Source of the DNA: Porticoccaceae bacterium
GTDB lineage: Bacteria > Pseudomonadota > Gammaproteobacteria > Pseudomonadales > Porticoccaceae
NCBI GenBank assembly: GCA_902562425.1
Contig: CACETF010000012.1
Location: forward strand, 1-64,000
Length of the DNA stretch: 64,000 bases
Direction: 5' to 3'
The position numbers were made by a program, and so were the translations under genes. The notes below the pieces were generated by a model that worked only from the letters and a program-made list of their open reading frames with translations, was not told the origin of the DNA and did no database searches. Positions 12,099-26,674 of this stretch are shown in pieces (the stretch's first letter is position 1; every line of letters begins with the position of its first letter).

Positions 12099-12191
12099 TG
12101 GCGGAAGAGGTAGGAGTCGAACCCACCAGGCGCAGTTAAACGCCTCACTGGTTTTGAAGACCAGGCGCTCCACCAGGAACGTTGCTCTTCC
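12099..12191 (-). tRNA. selC: tRNA-Sec (anticodon TCA)
   Basis: Read on the minus strand the gene starts GGAAGAGC and ends CTCTTCCGCCA, giving an eight-base-pair acceptor stem with the CCA encoded. The anticodon arm is CTGGT-CTTCAAA-ACCAG with TCA as anticodon, so it reads UGA. A long extra arm (GCGTTTAACTGCGC region) and the T-arm GGGTTCGACTCC follow. Length 93 bases, close to the 95 of E. coli selC. It lies 18 bases downstream of selB on the same strand, so it is probably transcribed with selAB and processed from that transcript. Confidence 0.95.
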
Positions 12192-12209
12192 GATATTTAA
12201 ATAAGAATC

Positions 12210-14132
12210 CTACAATAATCTATCTACATATCTTGGTCTTAAAACAGAACGGCGATCTTTAGACCGCCGAGTGAAGCCAATCGAATCAAAATACTCCATC
12301 AAGTCGATACATGAGTTTCGTCCCAAACCTAATTGCTCTTTTATTTGCGTAATCGAAAAGGTGGGCTCTCGCTCTGCAAAATCTCGAGTCGCTGCCATCA
12401 GTGCGCGTAGCCTTTCTCTCAGAATATAACGCTGTCCTCCTAGTTGGTAGACCCTTTTCTCCTTTACCGCCTTTCCGAGGACATCCGAAATAGTATCATT
12501 AGCAATGTTAATTTCTAAACATAAATCATGAAACGCCAAAATCTGAGAGGAAGACACAGACAACGCGTTCTCGATTAGTGACCAGTTGCTATTTCGCGAT
12601 GTGTCTAACTTAAAACGAAATGATTGTAGATTCATATATCCATCAGATCGTTCGATAAGGTTTGTTTTTACAAGCTGCGATACGACTGACTCAAACAAAG
12701 CGTTATCAAATCTGTCTTGAAATTGTCCTCGAAGATCACACTCCTTTATTCCAGGACCTACGTGATTGTTTTTATGCCAAAGATAGAGCGAATCTTGAAT
12801 AAACTTCTCAAAACATTCCCATTGCCTTTTTAGAACTATATATTCCTCATCAATCCAGCTGAATTGGAAAAGGCGCTTTTTTTTCGAAAACGAATGCAAA
12901 ATTCTCTCGAACTCCTCAGTCTGTAAATTAAACATATTTTTAAACCATTTGACAGAAACGACTTGCTTATAATTTAAAATCAAAACTGAGAACAATGTCT
13001 CAGGAGGGTGATCATCTTTTTCAGACAAAAAAGCTCGATGAGATTCGGTTAAATTTTTTGTCGAATCAACCGCCGGATCCAGCACAACGCCACCTCCCAA
13101 AGTAAACGACTCACTGTCATCTCGGACAATAAATTTATCTCCCCTGCAACATGCCAGATCCGATTGAGTAATAATTTCAACAAGCGCAGTGCTTCCTGGA
13201 GACAACTTAAGCCCATGCTTTTCCCTATCGTGAAAGATTAACAGAGCACGTTGTTGTTTCGCACCAATGTATAGTTTTATGTGGGTGCGATGCTTCAGAG
13301 AAAAGGGTGCCGAAGACAATAGTGTAAATCGGGCATCGAATCGAGGAGTACCTTTTGCAAATAATTTGCTTACAAGCCAGTCCCCGCGAGTAATCTGAGA
13401 TTTTTTTATTCCCGAAATATTCAAAGCGCAGCGTTGACCGACGTGAGCGCAATTGACTTTTTTGTCAAATGCATGAATTTGCTTGACTCTGACTCGGTGG
13501 CTACCGGGCAAAATCCGCAACTCCTCACCGACAGTGACAATACCAGAAATTACCGTGCCAGTGACAATAAGACCAATTCCTTTTATCAAAAATGAGCGAT
13601 CAATCGACAAACGAAAGTGCCCTTGCTTTGATTTGTCAGGTAGTGTTTTTGCCTTAGCACTTAAATATTTCCATAGATTTAAACCGGAATTCGGTTTCAA
13701 ACTATTTATCAAGAATAAATTTACGAAATTTGGCATGGTTGATTTAACAAGGCGCAACACGTCCCGTTGATGAAAACCATCCGCTTTATCAATCTTGGTA
13801 AGCACAATTACAAAATCCTTCACACCAAGCAGCCTGAGAATATCAAAGTGCTCAATAGTTTGGGGCATAGGTCCGTCATCTGCCGCTATCACGATTAGTG
13901 CTAGATCAATACTGCTGACTCCAGCAATCATCGTATTTATAAAGTTTTTATGTCCAGGCACATCAACGAACCCAACACTCACACCCGCACACAGTTCTCG
14001 ATGTGCAAACCCGAGTGATATCGACAACCCTCGACGCTTTTCTTCCTCTAATTTGTCGGTATCAACTCCGGTCAACTGTTTAACCAGCATTGTCTTTCCG
14101 TGATCCACATGTCCTGCAATGGCCACGATCAC
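12210..14132 (-). CDS. selB: Selenocysteine-specific elongation factor SelB
   Basis: A 640-residue GTPase. G1 GHVDHGKT is at residues 7-14, G3 DVPGH at 57-61 and G4 TKID at 112-115. EF-Tu-like beta-barrel domains follow, then a C-terminal region of winged helices that bind the SECIS hairpin. It delivers Sec-tRNA-Sec to UGA codons. Length is close to E. coli SelB (614). The start is GTG overlapping the selA stop (GTGA), implying translational coupling. The region before the final winged helices (about 350-520) is divergent but has no gap. Confidence 0.95.
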   Translation of the reverse strand: MIVAIAGHVDHGKTMLVKQLTGVDTDKLEEEKRRGLSISLGFAHRELCAGVSVGFVDVPGHKNFINTMIAGVSSIDLALIVIAADDGPMPQTIEHFDILRLLGVKDFVIVLTKIDKADGFHQRDVLRLVKSTMPNFVNLFLINSLKPNSGLNLWKYLSAKAKTLPDKSKQGHFRLSIDRSFLIKGIGLIVTGTVISGIVTVGEELRILPGSHRVRVKQIHAFDKKVNCAHVGQRCALNISGIKKSQITRGDWLVSKLFAKGTPRFDARFTLLSSAPFSLKHRTHIKLYIGAKQQRALLIFHDREKHGLKLSPGSTALVEIITQSDLACCRGDKFIVRDDSESFTLGGGVVLDPAVDSTKNLTESHRAFLSEKDDHPPETLFSVLILNYKQVVSVKWFKNMFNLQTEEFERILHSFSKKKRLFQFSWIDEEYIVLKRQWECFEKFIQDSLYLWHKNNHVGPGIKECDLRGQFQDRFDNALFESVVSQLVKTNLIERSDGYMNLQSFRFKLDTSRNSNWSLIENALSVSSSQILAFHDLCLEINIANDTISDVLGKAVKEKRVYQLGGQRYILRERLRALMAATRDFAEREPTFSITQIKEQLGLGRNSCIDLMEYFDSIGFTRRSKDRRSVLRPRYVDRLL

Positions 14133-15532
14133 TTGAGTAGATCCGCCAATTTACTTAACTGGGTAGAAAACTGTGCCTCTAACTCCATGCATCTGATGTC
14201 TAAAATTAATTTCCCCTTGCTCAAACGACCTACCACAGGGTAAGGCAATTTGCGAAACGCATTTAACAACTGTTTTAACCGAGCATCATTCACGGCAGAG
14301 ACAATCAATCCATAACTGGGAATATTTTCAACGGGCAGCGCACCACTCCCGATTTGACTATTGCAGATATCTGCCCGTACAAAATAATCGTTTGGCAAAA
14401 CAGCAGAGAGTTGCGGCACTAATCTTTTCGCTTGAGCCTCGATCTCCACCACGCTCCGCTTGAGAAAACGGATGGTAGGCAGCTCTTTCTCGAGTTCACA
14501 GGGATTTCGGTATAGTTTCAACACTTCCGCGAGAGCAGCATAGATCATCTTGTCAGGTCTTAGTGCTCGTTTAAGAGGATTCTTTCGAATGCAATTAATT
14601 AAATCCCTTCGACCAGAGATAATGCCACACTGAGGACCACCAAGAAGTTTATCGCCGCTAAAAGTTATGATATCAGCACCATCAGTTACAGCTTTTGAAA
14701 CGATTGGCTCCCTCGGCAGACCAAGTTTGTCCATATCAATCAGATTTCCGCTCCCAAGATCGACAACTAATGGGATTCCATTTTGTTTCGCTAAAACCGA
14801 TAACTCATTTTCCTCCACAGCCGCGGTAAAACCCTCCACACGGAAATTGCATGTATGAACCTTTAAAAGAAGTGCAGTTCGATGATTTATCGCACACTCA
14901 TAGTCACGGAGATGAGTCCTATTAGTAGTGCCAATTTCTACCAACTTACATCCAGAGCGTAACATTATATCCGGAATTCGAAAGGCTCCCCCTATTTCTA
15001 CTAATTCTCCCCGAGAAACGGGCACCTCCTTCTGATCTGCCAAGGTATTCAAGACTAAGAGTAAAGCAGCAGCATTATTATTTACGACCGTTGCAGCCTC
15101 CACTCCAGTTAACTCACAAATTAACTGCTCTACATGATGATCCCGCTCTCCTCTTCCCCCCGATTTCAAATCATATTCAAGATTGGTTGGGCACGAGGCA
15201 ACGCTAACAACTGCCTCGATCGCTTTTTTTGGCAGTATAGCGCGGCCCAAATTTGTATGCAGGACGATCCCCGATAAGTTAATAATACGGCGAAAACTCG
15301 ATTCATCCGACATAAGCAAACGATTTTCCACAATCTTAATTATTTCGTCGAGTGTCACCTCCTGCCCAAAGTCATCAATAGGCAAGGCTCTTATTCTGAT
15401 TAATTCATTCCTAAGACAATCAGTGACCCTAATACGCCCCCATTTCTGGATTAACAAACCGGAATGTCTCAGCACTTTATCGACTGAGGGTAGCAATCGA
15501 CGTCTGTCAAAATCCTTTTCTTTTATTGTCAT
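14129..15532 (-). CDS. selA: L-seryl-tRNA(Sec) selenium transferase SelA
   Basis: A 467-residue PLP enzyme converting Ser-tRNA-Sec to Sec-tRNA-Sec with selenophosphate. The Schiff-base lysine is Lys295 in TFSGDKLLGGPQCG, the same number as in E. coli SelA. Other family blocks are INLSGIVLHTNLGRA, NNNAAALLLVL and EIGGAFRIPDIM. It is the first gene of a selA-selB-selC unit. selD (selenophosphate synthetase) is not in the window and must be elsewhere. Confidence 0.97.
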   Translation of the reverse strand: MTIKEKDFDRRRLLPSVDKVLRHSGLLIQKWGRIRVTDCLRNELIRIRALPIDDFGQEVTLDEIIKIVENRLLMSDESSFRRIINLSGIVLHTNLGRAILPKKAIEAVVSVASCPTNLEYDLKSGGRGERDHHVEQLICELTGVEAATVVNNNAAALLLVLNTLADQKEVPVSRGELVEIGGAFRIPDIMLRSGCKLVEIGTTNRTHLRDYECAINHRTALLLKVHTCNFRVEGFTAAVEENELSVLAKQNGIPLVVDLGSGNLIDMDKLGLPREPIVSKAVTDGADIITFSGDKLLGGPQCGIISGRRDLINCIRKNPLKRALRPDKMIYAALAEVLKLYRNPCELEKELPTIRFLKRSVVEIEAQAKRLVPQLSAVLPNDYFVRADICNSQIGSGALPVENIPSYGLIVSAVNDARLKQLLNAFRKLPYPVVGRLSKGKLILDIRCMELEAQFSTQLSKLADLLK

Positions 15533-15909: not shown

Positions 15910-18900
15910 CTACCATGGGTCCATATGAGGATATTTCCTTGATGTCCTCTTTTGCACCACCGGAATCCGTTTTAAACCTGCTACAATCCATCCCCGAGTC
16001 TCTGCTGGATCAATAACGTCGTCCACACCGCCCCCAACAGCCGATGTTACTGCCTTTGCAGCTTGATATTCCTTTGCAACCCATTCATCAAAAGTTCTTA
16101 ACCTTTCTTCAGTATCTTCTATTGCCGCCAATTCTGATCTATAACCAAGCTTTACTGCTCCTTCTATATTCATTGCTGCAAACTCTGCAGTAGGCCAAGC
16201 AACAGAGAAAAAGCCAACCATAGAGCCCCCACCATGCATCGCCTGGATGCCTAAACCATAGGCTTTGCGCACAACTACACCGAACAGCGGCACCGTTAAA
16301 TTTGCACCAACATTAAATAATCGCGCAGCATGCCTGACGAGGCCAGTTGCCTCTACCTCCGGTCCAACCATTAAGCCAGGACAATCCATAAGACTCAGTA
16401 CCGGAAGATCAAATGCATCACAAAGCTTTAAGAACCGAGCGCCTTTATCAGCAGCATCAGAGTCGATGGCTCCTGAAAGATGATGTGGATTATTGGCAAT
16501 TACCCCTATTGGTCTGCCCTCGACCCTAACAAGGGCCGTTATTATCCCAATGCCAAACTTTTCTCTAATCTCTAGGACAGAATGCTTATCAGCCAATACT
16601 TCAATAACTTTACGCATGTCATACAATCGTAATCGATTTTCAGGGATAATATGTCTCAATATAAGCTGTTCATGCGATGTCCAATCAGATTTGTTTCCTT
16701 GGAAATAGGACAGGTATCGTTGTGCTTTTTCAACAGCCTCTATTTCATCCTCAACGAGAATATCCACCACACCGTTAGGCACTTGAAAGGACATCGGACC
16801 CACTTCTTCTGGAGTGTAAACGCCCAACCCACCGCCCTCGATCATTGCAGGTCCACCCATTCCAATCGTAGAATTTTTTGTTGCAATAATCACATCACAG
16901 CAAGCAAGTAAAACGGTATTACCAGCAAAACAACGCCCGTGATTTATACCAACCAAAGGAACTGCACCGGAGAGTTTTGAAAATTGTGTGAAGGTTGGCG
17001 TGTCATAAGCAACCCATGGGCCAATATTATCCTCACCAGGCCGACCGCCGCCGCCCTCCGAAAATAAAACTACAGGCAAACTAAACCGAAGTGCTAGCTC
17101 AAAAATACGATCTTGTTTGTAATGCCCCCTCCCCCCTTGCGTTCCTGCGAGCACAGTGTAGTCATAATGAACAATTATCGCTGCTGACGCCTCATCACCA
17201 AAGTCATCGGCATTTATCGTTCCTGTACCCACGACTACCCCATCAGCTGGAGTACGTGTTCGCAATGTCTCCATATCATGTCTTTGGTGCTGACGCGCGA
17301 CTACAAGCGGCCAATATTCTTTGAATGAACCCTCATCTAAAAGATGAGCAATATTTTCTCGAGGCATCCTCCCACCGCGAATACGCCTTTTTTCGACTGC
17401 AGAATGCCGGTGCTCATCAAGAGTATAGGCATGCAAGTCAAAGTTTTCCTGCAGATCTTGCCTAACAATATTGAAATCAGGTTCCTCCACAACTGATTCT
17501 TTGTCGATTGAAACTTCCGACTTCTCCAAAAGAATTACAGGAGATCCCTCACCGATAATTTGACCCACACTTGCTCTTACCTCATAGATGATCCCATCAC
17601 TGTCAGAAACAAGCTCATGCTCCATCTTCATTGCTTCCATCACGGCAAGCACCTGTCCTGCACAAATTTCTTGGTTTACTTGGACATTTACAGAAACAAT
17701 TGTCCCTTGCATTGGCGCGGAAATAGGTATCATATCGTTGGGCACATCGGCCTCAGCTAATACTTCGTTTTGATCCGTTTTGACTTTGCCGATGGCCATT
17801 TTTTTGTCATAACTAAATAATGCCAAGGGATCATAAGTTGTAGCCATCGTCACTGGTAAATCAGTTTCTTCAAAAGTTTCTTCAGCATTGACAAATCTTA
17901 GTTTTCCATCCCAATCCTTGGCAAGTTCAATGCTTTTTTCTTCGACCCACCGCGTGTGGATACCACTATGCATAAAATCCTGATGAGATATTATATTTTT
18001 AAGAAGCGGAATATTAGTTTTCACACCCTCAAATCGAAACTCTGAAAGCGCCCTCACTGCCTTTTTTGCCAATTCATCTAGTTTGTTAGTATTTGAATGA
18101 ACAATAACCTTTGCAATTAGCGAGTCAAAATTTGTATTAGTAATGTAACCTGCATAACCAAATCCATCCGTCCGTATTCCAGGGCCACTGGGAGGCTCAT
18201 AAGTTTGAATGACACCCGATGAGGGTGCAATCGACCCATTCGAGAGTATACGCTCCATATTTACCCTCGCTTGCAAGGAAAATCCCCGAGGGGCATATTT
18301 ATCCTCAATAATATTAAGATCGCTGAGAGATTTTCCGGAGGCCACCTCAATCTGGCTTACGACTAAATCAACACCGGTAACCTCTTCGGTAACAGTGTGT
18401 TCGACTTGAAGACGCGCATTTGCTTCAATAAATACAAAATGATTCTCTTCACTGTCCAGATCTAAAAGATACTCGAATGTTCCAAGACTTGAGTATTTTT
18501 GACTTCGGGCAAACTTTAAAGCTGATCCAAGAATTTCATCTCTGAGTTGATCTGGTAGATTAGGCGCGGGAGCGATCTCCACGAGTTTTTGATTTCTGCG
18601 TTGAACCGAGCACTCTCGATCACCTAGATGCGCCACATTGCCATACTTATCACCAATAATCTGAACTTCAATATGTCTGGCATGCTCTACAAACTTTTCC
18701 AAATAAACATCTGAAATACCAAACGCCTTTCTAGCCTCCGACTGACAAGCTCTGAATGCTTCTTTCAAATCCTTTTTGTGACTCACCAAACGCGTTCCTC
18801 GACCTCCACCGCCCGAAAGCGCTTTTATTATCACCGATCCATTGGCAGAATCGAAAAATTCTTCCGCTTGCTCAAGACATACCGCTCCAAAAGTTCCCTT

Positions 18901-19293
18901 TGAAACCGGAACGCCAGCAGAATGTGCGGCAGAGCGAGCGGCCGCCTTGTCCCCAAAAAGTCGCAAATGATGGCTCTCAGGCCCAATGAACGTAATACCT
19001 GCGGCATTACACTGTTCTGCGAAATCTGGCCGCTCAGATAGGAATCCATATCCTGGATGTATAGCATCACAGCCAGTATCCTTTGCAACTTGCAACAAAG
19101 CATCAATGTCAAGATATGACGAAGTACCTACTCCTGAGATCGAAACTGCATCATCTGCCATCTTGACATGCAAACTATTTTTATCATCCTCTGAGAAAAT
19201 TGCCACAGAAGGCACCCCTAAATCGGCACAAGCCCTCGAGATTCGAATAGCAACCTCTCCACGATTAGCAATTAAGATCCCACGAAAACGCAT
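15910..19293 (-). CDS. Single-chain acyl-CoA carboxylase (BC-BCCP-CT)
   Basis: A 1127-residue biotin-dependent carboxylase with all three parts in one chain. Biotin carboxylase occupies about residues 1-450 (ANRGEVAIRI at the start, the ATP-grasp glycine loop SGGGGRGTRLV near 160, FIEANARLQVEHTVTE near 290). The biotinyl domain has EAMKMEH, with the modified lysine near 556. The carboxyltransferase half runs from about 640 to the end (GRGHYKQDR, GGGGRPGEDN, HGRCFAGN, GGPAMIEGGGLG). Size and order match the homohexameric long-chain acyl-CoA carboxylases known from Mycobacterium and Rhodopseudomonas. It is the last gene of the selenoprotein-containing operon, 20 bases after the CoA-transferase. 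The natural acyl-CoA substrate is not predictable from sequence. Confidence 0.93.
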   Translation of the reverse strand: MRFRGILIANRGEVAIRISRACADLGVPSVAIFSEDDKNSLHVKMADDAVSISGVGTSSYLDIDALLQVAKDTGCDAIHPGYGFLSERPDFAEQCNAAGITFIGPESHHLRLFGDKAAARSAAHSAGVPVSKGTFGAVCLEQAEEFFDSANGSVIIKALSGGGGRGTRLVSHKKDLKEAFRACQSEARKAFGISDVYLEKFVEHARHIEVQIIGDKYGNVAHLGDRECSVQRRNQKLVEIAPAPNLPDQLRDEILGSALKFARSQKYSSLGTFEYLLDLDSEENHFVFIEANARLQVEHTVTEEVTGVDLVVSQIEVASGKSLSDLNIIEDKYAPRGFSLQARVNMERILSNGSIAPSSGVIQTYEPPSGPGIRTDGFGYAGYITNTNFDSLIAKVIVHSNTNKLDELAKKAVRALSEFRFEGVKTNIPLLKNIISHQDFMHSGIHTRWVEEKSIELAKDWDGKLRFVNAEETFEETDLPVTMATTYDPLALFSYDKKMAIGKVKTDQNEVLAEADVPNDMIPISAPMQGTIVSVNVQVNQEICAGQVLAVMEAMKMEHELVSDSDGIIYEVRASVGQIIGEGSPVILLEKSEVSIDKESVVEEPDFNIVRQDLQENFDLHAYTLDEHRHSAVEKRRIRGGRMPRENIAHLLDEGSFKEYWPLVVARQHQRHDMETLRTRTPADGVVVGTGTINADDFGDEASAAIIVHYDYTVLAGTQGGRGHYKQDRIFELALRFSLPVVLFSEGGGGRPGEDNIGPWVAYDTPTFTQFSKLSGAVPLVGINHGRCFAGNTVLLACCDVIIATKNSTIGMGGPAMIEGGGLGVYTPEEVGPMSFQVPNGVVDILVEDEIEAVEKAQRYLSYFQGNKSDWTSHEQLILRHIIPENRLRLYDMRKVIEVLADKHSVLEIREKFGIGIITALVRVEGRPIGVIANNPHHLSGAIDSDAADKGARFLKLCDAFDLPVLSLMDCPGLMVGPEVEATGLVRHAARLFNVGANLTVPLFGVVVRKAYGLGIQAMHGGGSMVGFFSVAWPTAEFAAMNIEGAVKLGYRSELAAIEDTEERLRTFDEWVAKEYQAAKAVTSAVGGGVDDVIDPAETRGWIVAGLKRIPVVQKRTSRKYPHMDPW

Positions 19294-19313: not shown

Positions 19314-21741
19314 CTAAGCCAACCGCGGCTTGGTGCCAATAATCCCATCTCGCTCCAAAGACGAATAATCTGCTGCAGAAAGACCAAGCATCTCTTTAAA
19401 AACGAAATCGTTGTGTTGACCCATAGTGGGCGCAGAATGACGAACTGGTATTGGCGATTCTCCTACACGCCATGGAGGGCTGGGATGAATTTGTGTCCCA
19501 ACAAAAGGTCTTTCTAGGAGCTGCATATAACCTCTGGCTACTAAATGCGGGTCATTCAATAATCCATCGCCGTCGTTCAAAACGGCAGCAGTGACGCCCA
19601 AATCCTGAAGCTCATTCATCAGTAATTTAGCATCTTTGCACTTTGTCCACTCCCCAACACAGGCATTGATTTCATTGTGCAACCCCGAAAATAATTCAGC
19701 TGAATACTTATCATAAAGCTTCCTCAAGGGAGGAACATTGTTAATGACACTCTCTTCAACATCGTTAACAATTTGAATAAGTATCCAATTTTCGTCACCT
19801 TTACAAGGAAAAACACCAAAAACCAGATAATCTGGATGAATATTCCCCGATCGTTTGAGAACAATACCGTCCACACTGTAGTGGAGAATACCAAGAAGTG
19901 AATGTGGCAAAATACACTCTGCGTGACTCAAGTCAACGAACTGACCCTTGCCGGTATGAGATTTGTGGTAAAGAGCTGTCAACAGCGCTGCGGTACCATT
20001 TACCGCGGCAATTGCATCACCAAAGGCCACATGCTGCATTGTAGGAGATTGATGCTTGTCTCCGAGCAGGTGCGGTAATCCTGCAGCCTGTTCCGCGGTC
20101 GAACCATAAGCTCGGAATTTAGCCCAAGGTCCCGTGCTCCCAAATGCGGGTAGGGATACAACCACAAGCTCGGGGTTAATTTCCACTAACTGGTGATATC
20201 CAAGATTTAACTTGGACATCACTCCTCCCGAATAGTTTTCAAGCACGGCATCTGCCTCCTTCAAGAGACGCACCAGAAGTTCGTAGCCAGCCTTCTTTTC
20301 ATACTCGATGGTAACGCCCAGTTTGTTTCGATTAAAGTGGACGAAATTCAAAGCTTTTTCTGCTCCATTATTATCAATCCATTCTTGCGTAGCTTCCCAA
20401 CTTCGGAACCAGTCAAATCTGACGCACCCCTCAACTTTTATGACTGTGGCTCCAAGATCCGCTGCGTTTTTTGTAGCTACTGGGCCTGCCCAACCCATGG
20501 ATAGGTCAATGATTATAATACCCTCGAGAGGTGTTTTTGATATCTCTTCACAATATGGTATTTTGTCTTCATTGCGCTCAGATAAATCCTTGACCTCCCC
20601 ATTTCCATCGGACGGACTAGTCCACATATCATCACTTCCACCCAGCATGGTCACTTGCCCACCCAAATTAGGTGGCGTCTTAAACAAGCGAAAAGGCGTC
20701 GAGGGTGCCCTAAAAGTCTCAGTTCCATCTGATATATCGCAAAAAGCTTGCCTATACTCAAATTGATCGACTGAAAATAATTCATCCATCGTCGGAACTC
20801 TGGCCAGAGGAATACGCATCGCCTGTCCTTTTTGGAATATATCCTCCACGTTATGCTTTGCTAGGCTCTCCAAGATCAGTGGCTCTAAAATATCAATAGC
20901 ATTTAAACGACTAATACTGCTTTGGTATAAGGGCTCGTCTGCAATATCGCCAAGATCCAATAACTTACAAAAAAGCTTTCCACTGACCCGGACTAAGCAC
21001 TGTTACGCCAATCCACCCGTCCTTGCATGGCCATATACCAAGAGGGTAAGTAGGAGAAAATCGATTTATCCCTAAGCGTAACGGGGTTGACTCACCGTTA
21101 TAACTTCCCAAAGCTCCCATGTCGGTGAGGTATAAATTCGCTTCAAAAATACTGGCATCTAGTTTAAAACGAGGTGCACTACGATCTGTTCTACCCTCAG
21201 ATAACCTGTGCGTTAAAAAACCTACACATCCATTAAACGCGCTCAATCCGCCTAATATTTGCGCTTGATATCCTTTTGGTATTAACGGTGGTCCCTCAGG
21301 CTCACCTATGCCTATCATAAGACCCGTGAGCGCATGAATCACAGCATCTGAACCATTGAATTTAGTATATGGGCCAGTCAAACCGAACCAACTTATTGCA
21401 CACATATTAGTGTCAAAATCTTCTATGGATAGTTCACTGGGAAGCTGATGGGGATCCATCAAAACTAAGTCAGCCATTAGTACTGATGCATGTTTATGAG
21501 GACAAGAGGTGACTACGCTCTCTTTATTTACATTAAGGTATCCATGGAGAGCGCTGGACCCATTTTTTAATAATGGCGCCACATTTCTAGTCGGAAATCC
21601 ATCTGGTGGCTCTACATTTACAACCCTTGCGCCATAGTCAGAAAACAATTTTCCCGTGTATGCCGTAGCAACGGTACCACTAACATCAGCAATCAATAAG
21701 CCATCGAAAGGCCTGACTATTTTTTCCAAGTTCTTTTCCAT
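19314..21741 (-). CDS. Two-lobed family III (CaiB/BaiF) CoA-transferase, interrupted by a one-base frameshift
   Basis: Two adjacent frames (21741-20965, 258 residues; 20960-19314, 548 residues) together make one tandem CaiB/BaiF protein. Each half starts with the family fold: LIADVSGTVATAYTGKLFSDYGA and LEGIIIIDLSMGWAGP. The second half has the likely catalytic Asp in FVDLSHAE. At about 20969-20975 a run of six T (minus strand GCTTTTTTGTAAG) causes the stop. With five T the frame reads AFCKLLDLGDIAD and continues smoothly. This suggests a recent single-base insertion, an assembly error, or (less likely) programmed +1 shifting. The enzyme would move CoA between carboxylic acids. It lies 19 bases after the SDR and 20 before the carboxylase. 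Confidence 0.85.
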
Positions 21742-21760: not shown

Positions 21761-22549
21761 TTAAATAGTGATCGTCTGACCTGTCATACCATCAGATTCA
21801 GAGCTCGCTAAAAAGACGGCAATGTGCGCTATCTCAGACGGCTGCAGCATCCTTCCCATGGGATTTTGACTTTCTACTGATGTCCAAAATTCCTCAGAAC
21901 TCCCACCGGTACTTACCACTTTTTTTTCAAAATTTCGGATGATATCTGTTTCTACAATACCCGGACACACTGCATTAACCTGAATGTTTTTTTTTGCTGT
22001 TTCCAATGCGATACACTTTGTTAGGCCAATCATGGCATGTTTTGAAGTATTGTATGCTGACGAATTCACACTACCCTTAAGTCCTGCCACCGATGAAATA
22101 TTGACAATCTTTCCCCGGCCTAATCGAATCATATGGCAGACTGCTAACTGACTCAGACGAAACACGGAGGACACATTAATACGCATTACTCGATTAAAAT
22201 CTTCCATGGTATGTTCTGTAAAGGGTTTGCCAACATGAATACCTGCATTATTTACTAGGATATCTAATTCCGGCTCTGCGCCTACCGCAAATGAAAATAG
22301 GCTAACAATTTCCTTATCTGACGCTAGATCAGCTGCAAAGGTTTTTACCCCGACACCATAACGCTTTAACCTATCTTCAACTTTCGGTAGCCCATTCACT
22401 GACGAAGCTGTCAACACCAAATCTGCTCCATGGCGAGCATATTCCTCGGCTATAGCTAACCCTATACCCCTTGTGGCTCCTGTGATAAGAGCTTTGCGTC
22501 CTCTAAGTCGATGCGTCTGCCCCTTAAAATTCTCAACAATCACAACCAT
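21761..22549 (-). CDS. Short-chain dehydrogenase/reductase
   Basis: A 262-residue classical SDR. The cofactor motif TGATRGIG is near residues 20-27, NNAG near 97, and the catalytic set is Ser in NISSVAGLKG (near 150) with Y-N-T-S-K (near 167). It contains ILVNNAGIHVG and the C-terminal GMTGQTITI typical of FabG-like enzymes. It overlaps the upstream GST-like gene by 10 bases and precedes the CoA-transferase, an arrangement like IsoI-IsoH-IsoG of isoprene metabolism, where the SDR oxidises a glutathione-conjugated alcohol to the acid. The actual substrate is unknown. Confidence 0.88.
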   Translation of the reverse strand: MVVIVENFKGQTHRLRGRKALITGATRGIGLAIAEEYARHGADLVLTASSVNGLPKVEDRLKRYGVGVKTFAADLASDKEIVSLFSFAVGAEPELDILVNNAGIHVGKPFTEHTMEDFNRVMRINVSSVFRLSQLAVCHMIRLGRGKIVNISSVAGLKGSVNSSAYNTSKHAMIGLTKCIALETAKKNIQVNAVCPGIVETDIIRNFEKKVVSTGGSSEEFWTSVESQNPMGRMLQPSEIAHIAVFLASSESDGMTGQTITI

Positions 22550-23658
22550 ACTTCCAAGTTATTTGCACGACCAATATTTCTTGATAATTTAAAATCTAAA
22601 ATCTCCTCCATATCGCAATCTATCAGCAGTTTTCTTATCGAAAGTTTTGACTCATCGGTGAGCGAATCAAATTCATCTTGTAATCGTTTTAACACATAAA
22701 AGCGAAACGGTTGTGCCTCTGCGGATACATTAACTCCCCTTACTTCAAAGGTGGCCATTCCGACGCCTCTGGGTACCTGCGTCCCCGGAGGGATATCATC
22801 ATTTTCTGCAAGCCAAGTGTTTATGCAATCACATGCACTACGAGTTTCGGGGACAAAATCGACGGCAAAATGTTTAAGCACATTCACCAATGACTCGGGA
22901 ATCAAATCATTTGCAAGATAATCCTCGCTCCTGTCGACGAACTCTCCAATATCCGGTTCTGGCCTGTTCATTCTCTCAACCCACCTAAAAACGCGCACGG
23001 CATGCTTATGCATCAAAGCAAGAGGCTTCGGATCTCGTCCCAAATGCCCATAGAGAGGGCAAATCATGCCAAAATCACCTATGCAGGGTCTGCCACCCAG
23101 GAAATATGGGTAATTCGAAAAATGCGTATTGAGTCTCTTTAACATCTCTAAGTGAAGATTTTCTATCAACTCATGAGTTTCTGGGACTACTCCCCATGCT
23201 GGTAAGACAAACTCCTTAATCTCTGACATGCGCTCTAAAGCCATTTGCTCACGATTCTGTCCCTCAAAAATCATTGAGAAATGAAATGGCAAAAATTGTC
23301 CATGCTCTTCACCGAAGTTAAATCGATAGTGCATACAAGGTCTGTTCAACCCTTCACTTCCGATTACTTGGAGTAAAAGGCTAATCATGCGCTGTGCAGG
23401 AGTAAAAGGAGAAAAAACATGTCCGTTTAATTTCTCAAAGTGATCGACAATGGCAACTCCGTCGCGGATAACGCGGCCATCGGGAAATTCAATTGTTGGG
23501 ATACCCCGACGTCCGCCGGCCTTTGGCAATACACTTTCATAGAAATGCGCAGACGCGTGAGGCTCCTCACGGTAATCAATTCCAGACTTGATGAGGTAAC
23601 TTCTTGCCCTGCCCGTCCACAACGAGAAAGGAACACCGTAAAGGGTTATCGGTTCCAT
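22540..23658 (-). CDS. Glutathione S-transferase-like protein with C-terminal extension
   Basis: A 372-residue protein. Residues 1-85 form a thioredoxin-like GST N-domain (ITLYGVPFSLWTGRARSYL, then GIPTIEFPDGRVIRDGVAIVDHFE with the cis-Pro). Residues of about 100-260 are the helical GST C-domain (FLGGRPCIGDFGMICPLYGHL). About 110 further residues have no recognised domain. The much longer chain sets it apart from ordinary GSTs of about 210 residues. A related long GST lies at 31342-32382. It overlaps the SDR gene by 10 bases. A role in conjugating or de-conjugating glutathione on the operon's substrate is inferred. Confidence 0.8.
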   Translation of the reverse strand: MEPITLYGVPFSLWTGRARSYLIKSGIDYREEPHASAHFYESVLPKAGGRRGIPTIEFPDGRVIRDGVAIVDHFEKLNGHVFSPFTPAQRMISLLLQVIGSEGLNRPCMHYRFNFGEEHGQFLPFHFSMIFEGQNREQMALERMSEIKEFVLPAWGVVPETHELIENLHLEMLKRLNTHFSNYPYFLGGRPCIGDFGMICPLYGHLGRDPKPLALMHKHAVRVFRWVERMNRPEPDIGEFVDRSEDYLANDLIPESLVNVLKHFAVDFVPETRSACDCINTWLAENDDIPPGTQVPRGVGMATFEVRGVNVSAEAQPFRFYVLKRLQDEFDSLTDESKLSIRKLLIDCDMEEILDFKLSRNIGRANNLEVWL

Positions 23659-23716: not shown

Positions 23717-24790
23717 TCAGGATTTACTGAGTCCAGGAATCTCACAGAAAAAGTTTTCCTCTATTTTTACGCTGACAGCCCGATTCTGATGGCCGGCTCC
23801 ACCCCAATTAGGCATCACCATAGAGTAAAGTCCAACACCACCAGATACCATTACCAATATATCCTCTGGTTTCTCGAAAGCGCAATAAGTATCTCCATCA
23901 AATCGCGACCCAAATTCGTTCCCATAATAGTCATGATCAGCAGTAGGAAAGTGAGTTAATTCCCAAAGTTTGAGCGCGATCTTTTCACGCGAATAGCTTG
24001 ATCTTGACAAAACATTTGCATGCTTGGGTCCCAGCACTACAAGGGCAACGCCACTGCAAAATATAGCGTTATTCGTGGCTATATTCGCAAGCCCAACTGA
24101 TAAGACATATAGAAGTTTCTCTGCATCTTCCGGATCATCCGCATTATCCGCATAAAGAACTGAATGAGGCGCCTCACAGCCTAATAATGTGACCACACTA
24201 TCGGACGCCTCAAAACCCAAGCTGGTATGAAGGGGGGGGAACGGAGAGGCTTCCTCTGCCTCCGAAAGGCAATATGTAAACTTACCCGGGTGTCCCAGTA
24301 ACGCCATATCGGATATCCCTGGCCGCCCGCCACCTATATTAATCATACACAGACGAAGCGCCCTTCCGATACTCGCGTTCGCTCGATGACCAGGACCGAG
24401 CGCGCCGTAGCTTGAAGATATTGGCCCACAAGTCTTGCGAGCGGGTCCATTCACGATAATTAATGGCGCGGTGCAGTGCGTTGTTGCCTGAAGCTCCGCC
24501 AGATCGAATTCTGGCCTCGCAGCAGCCTTTACAGCGGCAATCACCACCGGCATATAATCTGGAAGACACCCTGCCATCACGGCAGCTGTGGCTACTTTTT
24601 CAACTGACGCAACACCGCCTGCAGGACCCAACTCACCGAGGACCAGCTCGGAGTCAAGGCCACTTGCCAGTACCATCCGCGCAACTCGTTCACGCGTGGG
24701 AATAACGACAGGTAAACCATCGGTGCACTGCAATTCATGCAGCAATTCCAATGCGGATTCTTCGTTTTCTGCCTTTAAAACCTCATTCAT
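23717..24790 (-). CDS. Unrecognised partner protein of the UGSC selenoprotein
   Basis: A 357-residue soluble protein that I cannot assign to a named family. It starts inside the last codons of the UGSC selenoprotein gene (8-base overlap), so the two are almost certainly translated together. Conserved-looking, glycine-rich segments include LGELGPAGGVASVEKVATAAVM (about 51-72, key residues the GPAGG and EK) and NGPARKTCGPISSSYG (about 114-129, with Cys121). GPGHRANASIGRALRL and INIGGGRPGISDM follow. Several cysteines (22, 75, 106, 121, 148, 174) could act as resolving thiols for the selenocysteine. No signal peptide or membrane span. An 8-G run lies within it but does not break the frame. Confidence 0.6.
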   Translation of the reverse strand: MNEVLKAENEESALELLHELQCTDGLPVVIPTRERVARMVLASGLDSELVLGELGPAGGVASVEKVATAAVMAGCLPDYMPVVIAAVKAAARPEFDLAELQATTHCTAPLIIVNGPARKTCGPISSSYGALGPGHRANASIGRALRLCMINIGGGRPGISDMALLGHPGKFTYCLSEAEEASPFPPLHTSLGFEASDSVVTLLGCEAPHSVLYADNADDPEDAEKLLYVLSVGLANIATNNAIFCSGVALVVLGPKHANVLSRSSYSREKIALKLWELTHFPTADHDYYGNEFGSRFDGDTYCAFEKPEDILVMVSGGVGLYSMVMPNWGGAGHQNRAVSVKIEENFFCEIPGLSKS

Positions 24791-25319
24791 GTGAAAAGCG
24801 ATCCAAAATCTTATCTACGATGCTATATGCTATGGACTCTATTCGATCCTCACCAGTACCAGCCACAGGATGCGGTAGTTGCAACCTCGGTAGGTCGGGC
24901 ATTCCAATGGATTCAGCCATAAACTGACCTTGCTCCCAAAAGTCATCGGTAATGAGAGCAACAATGGGAAGTCCATGTTTGGCTATGCAATATCCGTCAC
25001 GCACGGTGCCGGTAGTACAACTGCCTCAATGACCATACGCCGTAATAACGACATTGCAATCGGTTACAATAGCCTGCAACATATTTTCTGGCACCGTAAT
25101 GCCAGGGTTACCCTTGTTCCAAATTCTCGTGCTAATTTGTGGTAAGCGTTTTTGGATAACCAATCCCATTTTACGTAGAAATAACTCGGAATCTGGGAAC
25201 CCGTTCGCCAAAAGACCAACAGTGATGCCTGCTCCACCCTTTTTTTGAATATCTAATGAATTGCAATAAGGCTCAATTACTCGCTTCACAAGACCCCGAG
25301 GATCAACAAATGTCAGCAT
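24783..25319 (-). CDS. UGSC-family selenoprotein (in-frame UGA read as selenocysteine)
   Basis: The frame begins with ATG at 25319 and meets TGA at 25026-25028, then stays open in the same frame to the TAG/TGA region at 24783. Read through, it is 178 residues with Sec98 in YGH-U-GSCTTGTVRDGYC. The U-G-S-C motif is the hallmark of the UGSC family, reported as a selenoprotein family in marine metagenomes, with Sec and Cys forming a likely redox pair. A second cysteine (DGYC) lies 11 residues further. A SECIS-like hairpin starts 13 bases after the UGA, and selA-selB-selC are encoded 10 kb downstream on the same strand. Conventional gene callers would report two short proteins instead. The catalysed reaction is unknown. 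Confidence 0.9.
24994..25012 (-). promoter_or_regulatory. Candidate bacterial SECIS hairpin
   Basis: On the mRNA the segment CCGGCACCGUGCGUGACGG lies 14-32 bases after the UGA. It folds as CCG/CGG, a G-A mismatch, CAC/GUG and a five-base loop CGUGC containing G and U. Bacterial SECIS elements bound by SelB sit at this distance with a small apical loop, so position and shape fit. Stability was judged by eye only. Confidence 0.65.
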
Positions 25320-25450
25320 TGTGTAATACCTCTCTCCTTTAAAAAAATATCTTCCTTTGATAAGTATAGCTTACTACATCTATATATCTAGTCTTATTAA
25401 CTGCTTTAAACTCATCTTGAGTAAATTTGAACCAAGCGCAACCGAATCAG

Positions 25451-26674
25451 TCAGAGGCCCTTAATGAAAGATGCAAGAGATGCAAGAGACTCCCTAACCA
25501 TTTCGGGAACAGCATCGGGCATCGCAATTTCTGGAACATGATGTGCACCATTAACAACCCGTGAACTTGCACTAACACCTGCCGTCTGCAATCGCTGAGC
25601 AAAAACCACACCATCATCACGTATCAGGTCGAGTTCATAATTTAAAATGACATGTGGTGGAAGCCCTTTTAAAACAGACTTTCCTGCACAAAAAGGCCAT
25701 GCTCTCGGATCATTTTTAAACCTCGAGGTCGGGTCATACACTTTCGTCATCGCCCGGTACATCGGCATGGTACCCTGATAACCCATATTTTCTCGCCAAG
25801 AACTGAGCGTCGGAACATCTGCATCATAGACACCCGACACCATCGGAGCCATCGCGAAAACACCATCGATATTATCGACCCATCCCTCTAATTTGGCTTT
25901 GATACCAAGGGCTATAGCCAAATTACCACCACCAGATTCGCCGGCCACCGTCAAGGAGGAAACTCCCAATCTGGATTTATTTTCAAATACCCAGCGCACG
26001 GCAGATGCACAATCATTTAGCCCATGAGGAAAGGGGTGGTGTCCTGGACTTAAGGCCTCACTACGAAATTCGACACCAATTACAAGCAGCCCCATCTTTG
26101 CTAGTTCCGTTCGCCATAGAACAGTTTCCGGAGTCTCTGCCGAAGAAAATGTCATACCCCCACCGTGGATATGAACTACGCAAGGTATTACTGTATCAAT
26201 AATTTTGGGACGCTCGACAAAAAGGAGAATATCATTTCCCTCATCTCCCTTAATAATCTCTGTGCTAGCGACGACATCCGGATTGTCTTGTCGGATGGAG
26301 GAAACTTCCACGTCGCTATTTAAAATAACGTCATGCATGTACTCCACAAACTTAACACAATCATCATAAGAGGAATCCATTGTAAGAGTTGGCGGAAAGA
26401 CTCCCGGCTTTGCTCCGGAGCTTGCCATTAAGGCGCTGCGTATTGCAGGATGTAATCTCGGGTCCTGAAGTAAAGTTAATTCAGGGTCCCCGAGTTTACC
26501 AGGAAGTTTTAATGGAGAGCCGGACGTACAAATAGAATAATAATCGTTATTTTGCTTAGTCTCAGCAGCTCTTACAAAGCGAGGTAAAAAAATTGCTGCT
26601 AAAAACGCATTGAATCCAGCAGCCTTGAGGAATGCGCGGCGCCCCAAAACGGAGCGCCTAATTTTAGCAAACAC
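25451..26674 (-). CDS. Tat-exported alpha/beta hydrolase (HSL-like esterase)
   Basis: A 407-residue alpha/beta hydrolase. The N-terminus has a twin-arginine signal, GRRAFLKAAGF followed by a hydrophobic stretch and an AA site near residue 37, so it should be exported folded. Active-site features are HIHGGGMTF (oxyanion HGGG, hormone-sensitive lipase group), GESGGGNLA (nucleophile Ser), a likely acid in LDLIRDDG and His in NGAHHVPE. It would hydrolyse an ester or lactone in the periplasm. It lies between the TonB receptor (38 bases upstream) and the selenoprotein gene (131 bases downstream), suggesting that it processes the imported substrate. Confidence 0.88.
   Translation of the reverse strand: MFAKIRRSVLGRRAFLKAAGFNAFLAAIFLPRFVRAAETKQNNDYYSICTSGSPLKLPGKLGDPELTLLQDPRLHPAIRSALMASSGAKPGVFPPTLTMDSSYDDCVKFVEYMHDVILNSDVEVSSIRQDNPDVVASTEIIKGDEGNDILLFVERPKIIDTVIPCVVHIHGGGMTFSSAETPETVLWRTELAKMGLLVIGVEFRSEALSPGHHPFPHGLNDCASAVRWVFENKSRLGVSSLTVAGESGGGNLAIALGIKAKLEGWVDNIDGVFAMAPMVSGVYDADVPTLSSWRENMGYQGTMPMYRAMTKVYDPTSRFKNDPRAWPFCAGKSVLKGLPPHVILNYELDLIRDDGVVFAQRLQTAGVSASSRVVNGAHHVPEIAMPDAVPEMVRESLASLASFIKGL

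Follow-up and report, generated by a model that had tools for sequence, protein, structure and literature searches.

This locus raises two questions: does a gene that seems to lie in two broken pieces encode one selenoprotein, and if so, what does the protein do? The gene is on the minus strand of a 64,000-nucleotide stretch of Porticoccaceae DNA (the whole stretch that we analyzed, hereafter the window). On sequence comparison, it is well supported that the two pieces form one selenoprotein of the UGSC family, which is known and functionally unsolved. A preliminary description of this DNA had remarked that UGSC proteins are known from marine metagenomes and that their reaction is not established. 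The literature bears out both remarks: 255 Sec and 21 Cys sequences of the family were reported from the GOS metagenome data (PMC2398784), the family is tabulated in a 2022 review, and a source from 2026 names UGSC among selenoproteins that are largely uncharacterized in function. A literature search, with subscription papers and supplements outside its reach, turned up neither a function for UGSC nor an obligate pair.

The preliminary description did not include the gene that overlaps the UGSC gene, the operon that runs on into selA-selB, or the wider pairing of the two genes, and the pairing is the more informative. What is new here is a near-obligate partner, of no named family, beside the known UGSC family.

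One reading frame across the TGA

The features of the gene are as follows (coordinates are those of the window).

24783..25319, minus strand: gene for a predicted selenoprotein of the UGSC family, 178 aa, Sec at residue 98 (from the frame, the PF24696 match, and relatives)
25026..25028, minus strand: in-frame TGA, predicted selenocysteine (the U of UGSC), with Cys in homologues (from the frame and comparison)
25331..25340, minus strand: putative ribosome-binding site AAAGGAGAGA, GGAG-type, ahead of the ATG (read from the sequence)
24994..25012, minus strand: SECIS-like hairpin CCGGCAC-CGUGC-GUGACGG, loop at 25001-25005 (from synonymous invariance and pairing in Sec members)

Translation with TGA read as U confirmed the claim that a single frame, from the ATG at 25319 to the terminal TGA at 24783, is interrupted only by the TGA at 25026-25028. 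The product has 178 residues, with U98 in the sequence GHUGSC, and so the U-G-S-C seen in the preliminary description is there. Residues 6-175 match Pfam's UGSC family (PF24696) at 136.4 bits (the cut-off is 25), and the protein does not reach the cut-off of the NCBIfam equivalog NF041046 (100.4 vs. 125 bits). When the window was compared with its relatives, dN was much lower than dS on either side of the TGA wherever dS could be estimated, which for the part before the TGA was against four of the seven relatives and not against the other three (against L009, dN/dS values were 0.098/0.75 before the TGA and 0.052/0.33 after). Relatives do not end at the UGA, as they might if it were a natural stop; they continue past it with both sides conserved. 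Alignment to UGSC-domain proteins, which had been suggested as a check, found homologues with Cys at the Sec site.

Automatic annotation had been expected to turn this kind of gene into two small proteins, and we met such a case in plasmid pFER4 of Paracoccus ferrooxidans, where annotation has split the homologous Sec gene into a pair of hypothetical proteins, WGR63593.1, which stops at the TGA, and WGR63594.1. In the window, a mechanical list of ORFs of at least 80 aa has the 97 residues that precede the TGA and nothing of the remainder. Judging from these sequences, the TGA is almost certainly decoded as selenocysteine at position 98.

Selenocysteine and cysteine forms among relatives

The family is held by 20 of 144 genomes (the window's own genome and its relatives). 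The 22 matches over the cut-off divide into 19 with an in-frame TGA, of which one has a TAG as well, and 3 without. An order-wide search of 390 genomes, a set that overlaps the 144, gave a match in 42 genomes, 38 of them over the cut-off, and 51/52 of the over-cut-off matches have one TGA. We also assembled 127 loci, which include the window itself (L001) and two pairs of identical sequences (L013/L043 and L015/L085). The motif was scored for 126 of these: 44 have UGSC and 82 have CGSC, so that the site holds TGA or Cys in 126/126. The locus left unscored, L022, holds a degraded UGSC gene that reads UGFC. The 79 loci that came from a scan of genome contigs over-represent Cys forms because that scan used a Cys pattern. 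The second Cys of the UGSC motif is invariant in our alignment A6 (33/33 rows).

In a tree of 124 rows (a quick build, with several long branches flagged), at least three changes between Sec and Cys are needed, two of them on account of branches with good support. The window belongs to a set of four Sec rows (support 97) and to a larger set (support 99) in which 13 rows are Sec and 3 are Cys.

Some individual homologues deserve mention. In a divergent Sec clade (L018, L019, and L020), the UGSC protein has an N-terminal CGDxxC, which is like a motif that is found on the partner in other lineages. A homologue on a Neorhizobium plasmid (L178:7350-7826) has CSTC where others have CGSC. The IncP conjugative plasmid of Acidovorax sp. 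T1 carries an unannotated Sec-type UGSC pair (L175:7443-7934), with IS1071 and IS91 transposase genes flanking the pair on one side; we found no match to selB on this plasmid. Finally, the window's own genome has a second selenoprotein candidate, a PrdB-like protein of the GRDB family with a UPLC motif and an in-frame TGA (L107:1474-2646, on G000:C8). A relative (L113) has Cys.

Selenocysteine insertion genes

The genes for inserting selenocysteine are in the window.

14129..15532, minus strand: selA (TIGR00474, 555 bits)
12210..14132, minus strand: selB (TIGR00475, 348 bits)
12100..12192, minus strand: selC, tRNA-Sec

As had been described, all three are about 10 kb downstream of the UGSC gene and on its strand. 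The absence of selD would have counted against a selenoprotein, and selD is present in the same genome, outside the window (G000:C2:170617-171540, 407 bits). Across the 144 genomes, selB is over its cut-off in 22: in 14 of the 17 genomes with TGA-type UGSC, versus 8 of the 127 others (P = 1.8e-11, Fisher exact test, uncorrected for kinship). It is over the cut-off in none of the three genomes with only a Cys form of UGSC. The TGA-form genomes without selB are G004, whose UGSC copy looks truncated, and G006 and G042, which are 78% and 64% complete.

Sec-insertion genes are near the UGSC pair in other lineages as well. Three loci with the window's type of operon (L124, L125, and L131) have selA after it, and two loci from other UGSC clades (L132 and L138) have selA, selB, and tRNA-Sec near the pair. 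Plasmid pBEN of Paracoccus versutus has both selB and tRNA-Sec no more than about 8 kb from the pair. On pFER4, selB is about 3.3 kb past the partner, and the gene ahead of selB encodes a TRAP-type binding protein and not SelA.

A SECIS-like hairpin after the TGA

The preliminary description placed a hairpin with a 5-base loop 14-32 bases downstream of the TGA and called it SECIS-like. The hairpin is exactly there, with a G.A mismatch and 20 nt from the UGA to the loop. Its SECIS-like role is supported by the comparison of relatives but not by folding energy, which shows no excess over shuffled sequences: of four stretches folded, none stands out (z = 0.86, 1.14, 1.30, and −0.51). Rfam covariance models of any family, SECIS included, gave nothing in 24940-25060 up to an E-value of 10.

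The comparative evidence is of two kinds. First, each position from +5 through +9 past the TGA (encoding T G T V R) uses a single codon in all 13 sequences of the window's clade, versus a mean codon entropy of 1.71 bits for 35 other degenerate conserved columns (P = 1.2e-4, Mann-Whitney test, for +4 to +10, a span that was chosen after an earlier pass with 10 sequences was seen). The earlier pass gave the same picture. The Gly at +1, which is among the 35 comparison columns, is likewise codon-invariant. A set of 30 Cys homologues has a weaker dip in entropy (0.93 vs. 1.49 bits, P = 0.0045), and the synonymous effect may therefore be general in part. In a second Sec clade (27 rows), no codon column near the TGA was conserved enough to score.

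Second, the pairing is kept. Among the 44 Sec members tested (L014, which contains an N, was excluded, and L172 was added), all have at least five of the seven pairs and a loop of the form N-G-U-N-N. At least six pairs are formed in 32/44 Sec members versus 10/82 Cys homologues at either register, where the register (16 or 14 nt) was assigned clade by clade after inspection of the data. The GU of the loop discriminates less, as 33/82 Cys homologues have it at register 16 and 3/82 at register 14. Pairs 3, 5, 6, and 7 are standard in 44/44 Sec members and differ in type between clades (G-C or C-G at pair 3; C-G, U-A, or G-U at pair 5; A-U or G-C at pair 6; and C-G or G-C at pair 7). Of the outer pairs, pair 1 is standard in 27 of the 44, and pairs 2 and 4 in 31 each. 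A further Sec copy, from an Acidovorax plasmid, which was not used in choosing the registers, has 7/7 pairs and the loop AGUGU at register 14. Comparison supports a SECIS-type hairpin just after the UGA that is weak as a thermodynamic signal alone.

A near-obligate partner gene

The UGSC gene is overlapped by the next gene of its operon.

23717..24790, minus strand: partner gene, 357 aa, with an 8-nt overlap at the UGSC stop (nothing notable in Pfam, NCBIfam, or the PDB)

No family in Pfam or NCBIfam was over its cut-off for the partner, Pfam scans of 15 members included, and PDB sequence searches with both proteins and with profiles of 12, 15, 33, and 35 members found nothing convincing. Annotated relatives of the partner on plasmids are labeled as hypothetical proteins. 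Residues that are invariant in 35 partner sequences include D24, G25, L26, P27, T103, T104, R143, and E177.

In 122 of the 127 loci, from bacteria and archaea, UGSC has a homologue of the partner next to it or fused with it, on the same strand in 121. (For this count, the gap between the genes was up to about 1.5 kb, and not all of the loci flagged as fused are real fusions because stops were read through.) The partner is downstream of UGSC in 94 loci and upstream in 28. As for the five loci that lack it, L009 and L152 are at contig ends, the UGSC genes of L017 and L022 look truncated or degraded, and L040 is from Methanobrevibacter. The reverse search, from the partner, matched 24 plasmid records, of which we examined 16 (one of these, L167, is the same stretch as L034). 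In 15 of the 16 regions, a UGSC-type domain is beside or fused to the partner, with two of these matches being weak (20 and 22 bits); L181 is the only one with no UGSC-type domain within 6 kb. As the two genes are nearly always encoded adjacently, their products are probably subunits of one enzyme, and we consider it very likely that they are an obligate functional pair.

The arrangement of the pair varies. L016 is a UGSC-partner fusion. Two haloarchaeal plasmids (L173 and L176) have one UGSC gene between two partner genes, so the partner is perhaps heterodimeric there. Fused genes in Vibrio europaeus (L170:7383-9068) and Sporomusa termitida (L171:7320-9044) have MGTS in place of CGSC and stand close to genes for aconitase X and DUF126. 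As these MGTS homologues keep the partner, the scaffold can persist without its redox residues.

Operon and genome neighborhoods

The other genes of the operon between the pair and selA, and the gene upstream, are as follows.

25451..26674, minus strand: alpha/beta hydrolase, conserved upstream gene
22540..23658, minus strand: GST-like protein, whose gene is the conserved follower of the pair in operons of this type
21761..22549, minus strand: short-chain dehydrogenase (SDR)
19314..21741, minus strand: CoA-transferase family III, double length, split by a frameshift into two ORFs
15910..19293, minus strand: single-chain carboxylase-like protein, by eye a putative biotin carboxylase plus carboxyltransferase

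The order esterase - UGSC - partner - GST-like - SDR - CoA-transferase III - carboxylase is found in the window and in L123, L124, L125, and L131. (The gene caller missed the UGSC row of L124, which is the same as L004, and the partner of L131 is shown as two ORFs.) The CoA-transferase is a single ORF of about 808 aa in L131 and two ORFs in the window, with the split near a run of T at 20960-20967; this split is either a sequencing error or real.

Among 98 neighborhoods, which count two contigs twice (L043/L133 and L085/L137), the gene clusters include SDRs (41), acyl-CoA ligases (31), CaiB-type CoA-transferases of family III (29), and acyl-CoA dehydrogenases (16). The clusters were named from the window's Pfam hits or by eye, and genes in GC-rich loci were called with a filter on GC by codon position. 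TRAP or tricarboxylate transporter genes are in 9 of 14 annotated plasmid regions. In some loci, genes for lyases, PEP-mutase-type proteins, or aconitase X are neighbors of the pair. The neighborhoods in methanogens gave no functional lead.

Candidate thiol donors

In Roseovarius, trxB adjoins UGSC; in Variovorax, trxB is two genes away from the pair; and in Arthrobacter, the gene order is trxB-trxA-partner-UGSC. Across the 109 loci searched, only 4 have a true trxB or trxA, and the window is not among them; no one donor therefore serves the family as a whole. (At L126, one of these four loci, a fumarase gene and a distance of about 1.6 kb separate the partner from the trx gene, which is on the opposite strand.) TrxB-like genes (about 28-37% identity) adjoin the pair or are within about 6 kb of it in L177, L178, L179, and L182.

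Other lineages have Cys motifs on the partner itself. The partners of one Sec clade have an N-terminal CPTC stretch. Of three N-terminally extended partners tested, one matches Pfam's Thioredoxin family below the cut-off (E = 0.0024) and two have no Pfam domain. A loose pattern placed CGxxxC-type or GCGS motifs ahead of the core of the partner in half (50) of the 100 loci scored, a figure that excludes the 27 of 127 loci where the pattern detected no core. In the window's clade, neither subunit has an extra Cys motif or a thioredoxin domain. GST genes are present in this clade, and, from their position, our guess is that GST is the thiol donor.

Predicted folds

The predicted model of the UGSC protein (pLDDT 91.7) has a core of five beta-alpha units in a Rossmann-like order, with the UGSC motif at the start of the helix that follows the third core strand. 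Its best structural matches, by Foldseek and VIA-align, are generic Rossmann-like and CheY-like proteins. None of the best 50 VIA-align rows is called a thioredoxin, in a list that excludes no fold. The best natural row is 8s7v_H, from the methyl-coenzyme M reductase activation complex (Z = 11.0, rmsd 3.4, 134 aligned). We rejected this likeness as a lead, as a designed protein scores higher (Z = 11.8) and CheY-like rows are only slightly lower, and a literature search on this complex found nothing. The model of the partner has a pLDDT of 77.6 and no PDB match with Z of at least 8; weak matches to class-I fumarase and cyclic-amide-hydrolase folds were not used.

A proposed mechanism and its alternatives

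In our best reading of the locus, the UGSC protein is the selenocysteine-containing redox component of a reductase that has two subunits, is recycled by thiol, and serves the CoA-linked catabolism of organic acids (we put the probability at roughly 0.6). For the pair, we infer complex formation, a reductive reaction, the substrate, and the electron donor. We propose that the UGA at 25026-25028 is read as Sec, with the SECIS-like hairpin directly downstream. UGSC would be the redox subunit, and the 357-aa product of the overlapping gene would be the other subunit, which would bind a substrate of organic-acid or acyl type (likely either the free acid or the CoA ester) from a catabolic pathway linked to CoA. 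The selenolate of Sec98, at the N-terminus of a helix, would attack the substrate, and Cys101 would resolve the resulting bond by forming a selenenylsulfide. Reducing the selenenylsulfide would then fall to a thiol donor: GST/glutathione here, and thioredoxin or Cys motifs in other lineages. The MGTS homologues in Vibrio and Sporomusa, the scarcity of true trxB or trxA, the two extended partners that match no Pfam domain, the partner model with no confident relative, and the window's clade, where extra Cys motifs and thioredoxin domains are missing from both subunits, count against this mechanism. As for the reaction itself, thiol-recycled reduction of an organic-acid-type substrate comes a little short of an even bet.

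One alternative is that Sec or Cys forms a covalent adduct with an unsaturated acid in a non-reductive step (isomerization, addition, or a lyase reaction), as in Cys-based isomerases. This would fit with the lyase, PEP-mutase-type, and aconitase X genes near some loci and with the MGTS homologues, which retain the scaffold without the Cys. However, the invariant second Cys and the recurring thiol-redox genes and motifs favor a disulfide or selenenylsulfide step, and we consider a non-reductive reaction unlikely.

A second possibility is that UGSC is a distant member of the GrdB/PrdB family (glycine/D-proline reductase), in which case the partner would stand in for the substrate-binding subunits. 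Profile alignment by itself sets Sec on Sec, with the next stretch in register. Also, grd operons contain thioredoxin and thioredoxin reductase genes, as do the neighborhoods of some UGSC pairs. However, hhalign gave E-values of 0.12-0.13 for this match, versus values down to 0.018 for unrelated families and 0.026 for a column shuffle (the controls were 12 unrelated families, 10 column shuffles, and one reversal, and several scored better). Furthermore, Pfam scans of 33 UGSC and 15 partner members list no GRDB or component-B family, and the one PrdB-like query run against the PDB found no relative. As the profile similarity is not significant and the partner is not a recognized component-B subunit, kinship with GrdB/PrdB (PF07355) is not supported and seems improbable.

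Third, UGSC could be a stand-alone oxidoreductase with a thioredoxin fold, for antioxidant defense or repair, with its neighboring gene being incidental. The 2008 GOS paper (PMC2398784) supposed a thioredoxin fold for UGSC, and the UxxC motif would fit. This seems very improbable given the Rossmann-like order of the five predicted beta-alpha units, the lack of any row called a thioredoxin among the best 50 structural matches (a list that excludes no fold), and the partner in 122/127 loci.

Finally, that the TGA is a real stop, leaving a pseudogene or two short proteins, would fit with the 97-aa ORF of the mechanical list and with the non-significant folding energy of the hairpin, but it is hardly credible given purifying selection on either side of the TGA, TGA or Cys at the site in 126/126 scored relatives, invariant synonymous codons after the TGA, and the conserved operon with sel genes.

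Returning to a thiol-recycled reductase, its wider form is more tentative. The UGSC-partner pair may represent an undescribed two-subunit class of selenol/thiol reductase, not kin to glycine or proline reductase, that acts in organic-acid catabolism in bacteria and archaea, and whose Sec form is a transferable module with the Sec-insertion genes; we think of this as possible rather than probable. The idea of a transferable module arises because the pair adjoins selA-selB in several lineages and, on a Paracoccus megaplasmid, adjoins selB and tRNA-Sec. With a partner, probable thiol donors, and a pathway context, an orphan UGSC protein becomes a defined enzyme for co-expression and assay, and the Cys forms in cultured strains spare the need for Sec.

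Comparison to known systems

The protein in the window resembles the known UGSC family (PF24696/NF041046) in its near full-length match, its UGSC motif, the occurrence of Sec and Cys forms, and the UGA with a hairpin downstream. In contrast to that family, it scores below the NF041046 cut-off, its hairpin has the register of its own clade, and its operon includes a CoA-transferase, a carboxylase, and selA-selB. As for the partner, the 2008 GOS paper mentions a fusion of UGSC to a domain termed Unknown_1 (PMC2398784). Unknown_1 is an unnamed conserved domain fused to UGSC, as is the partner in the L016 fusion, so Unknown_1 is perhaps the partner. Finally, a likeness in working between the UGSC pair and GrdB/PrdB is possible. 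UGSC and PrdB/GrdB (PF07355) share a UxxC motif with Sec, and some UGSC pairs have genes for thioredoxin-type reductants nearby.
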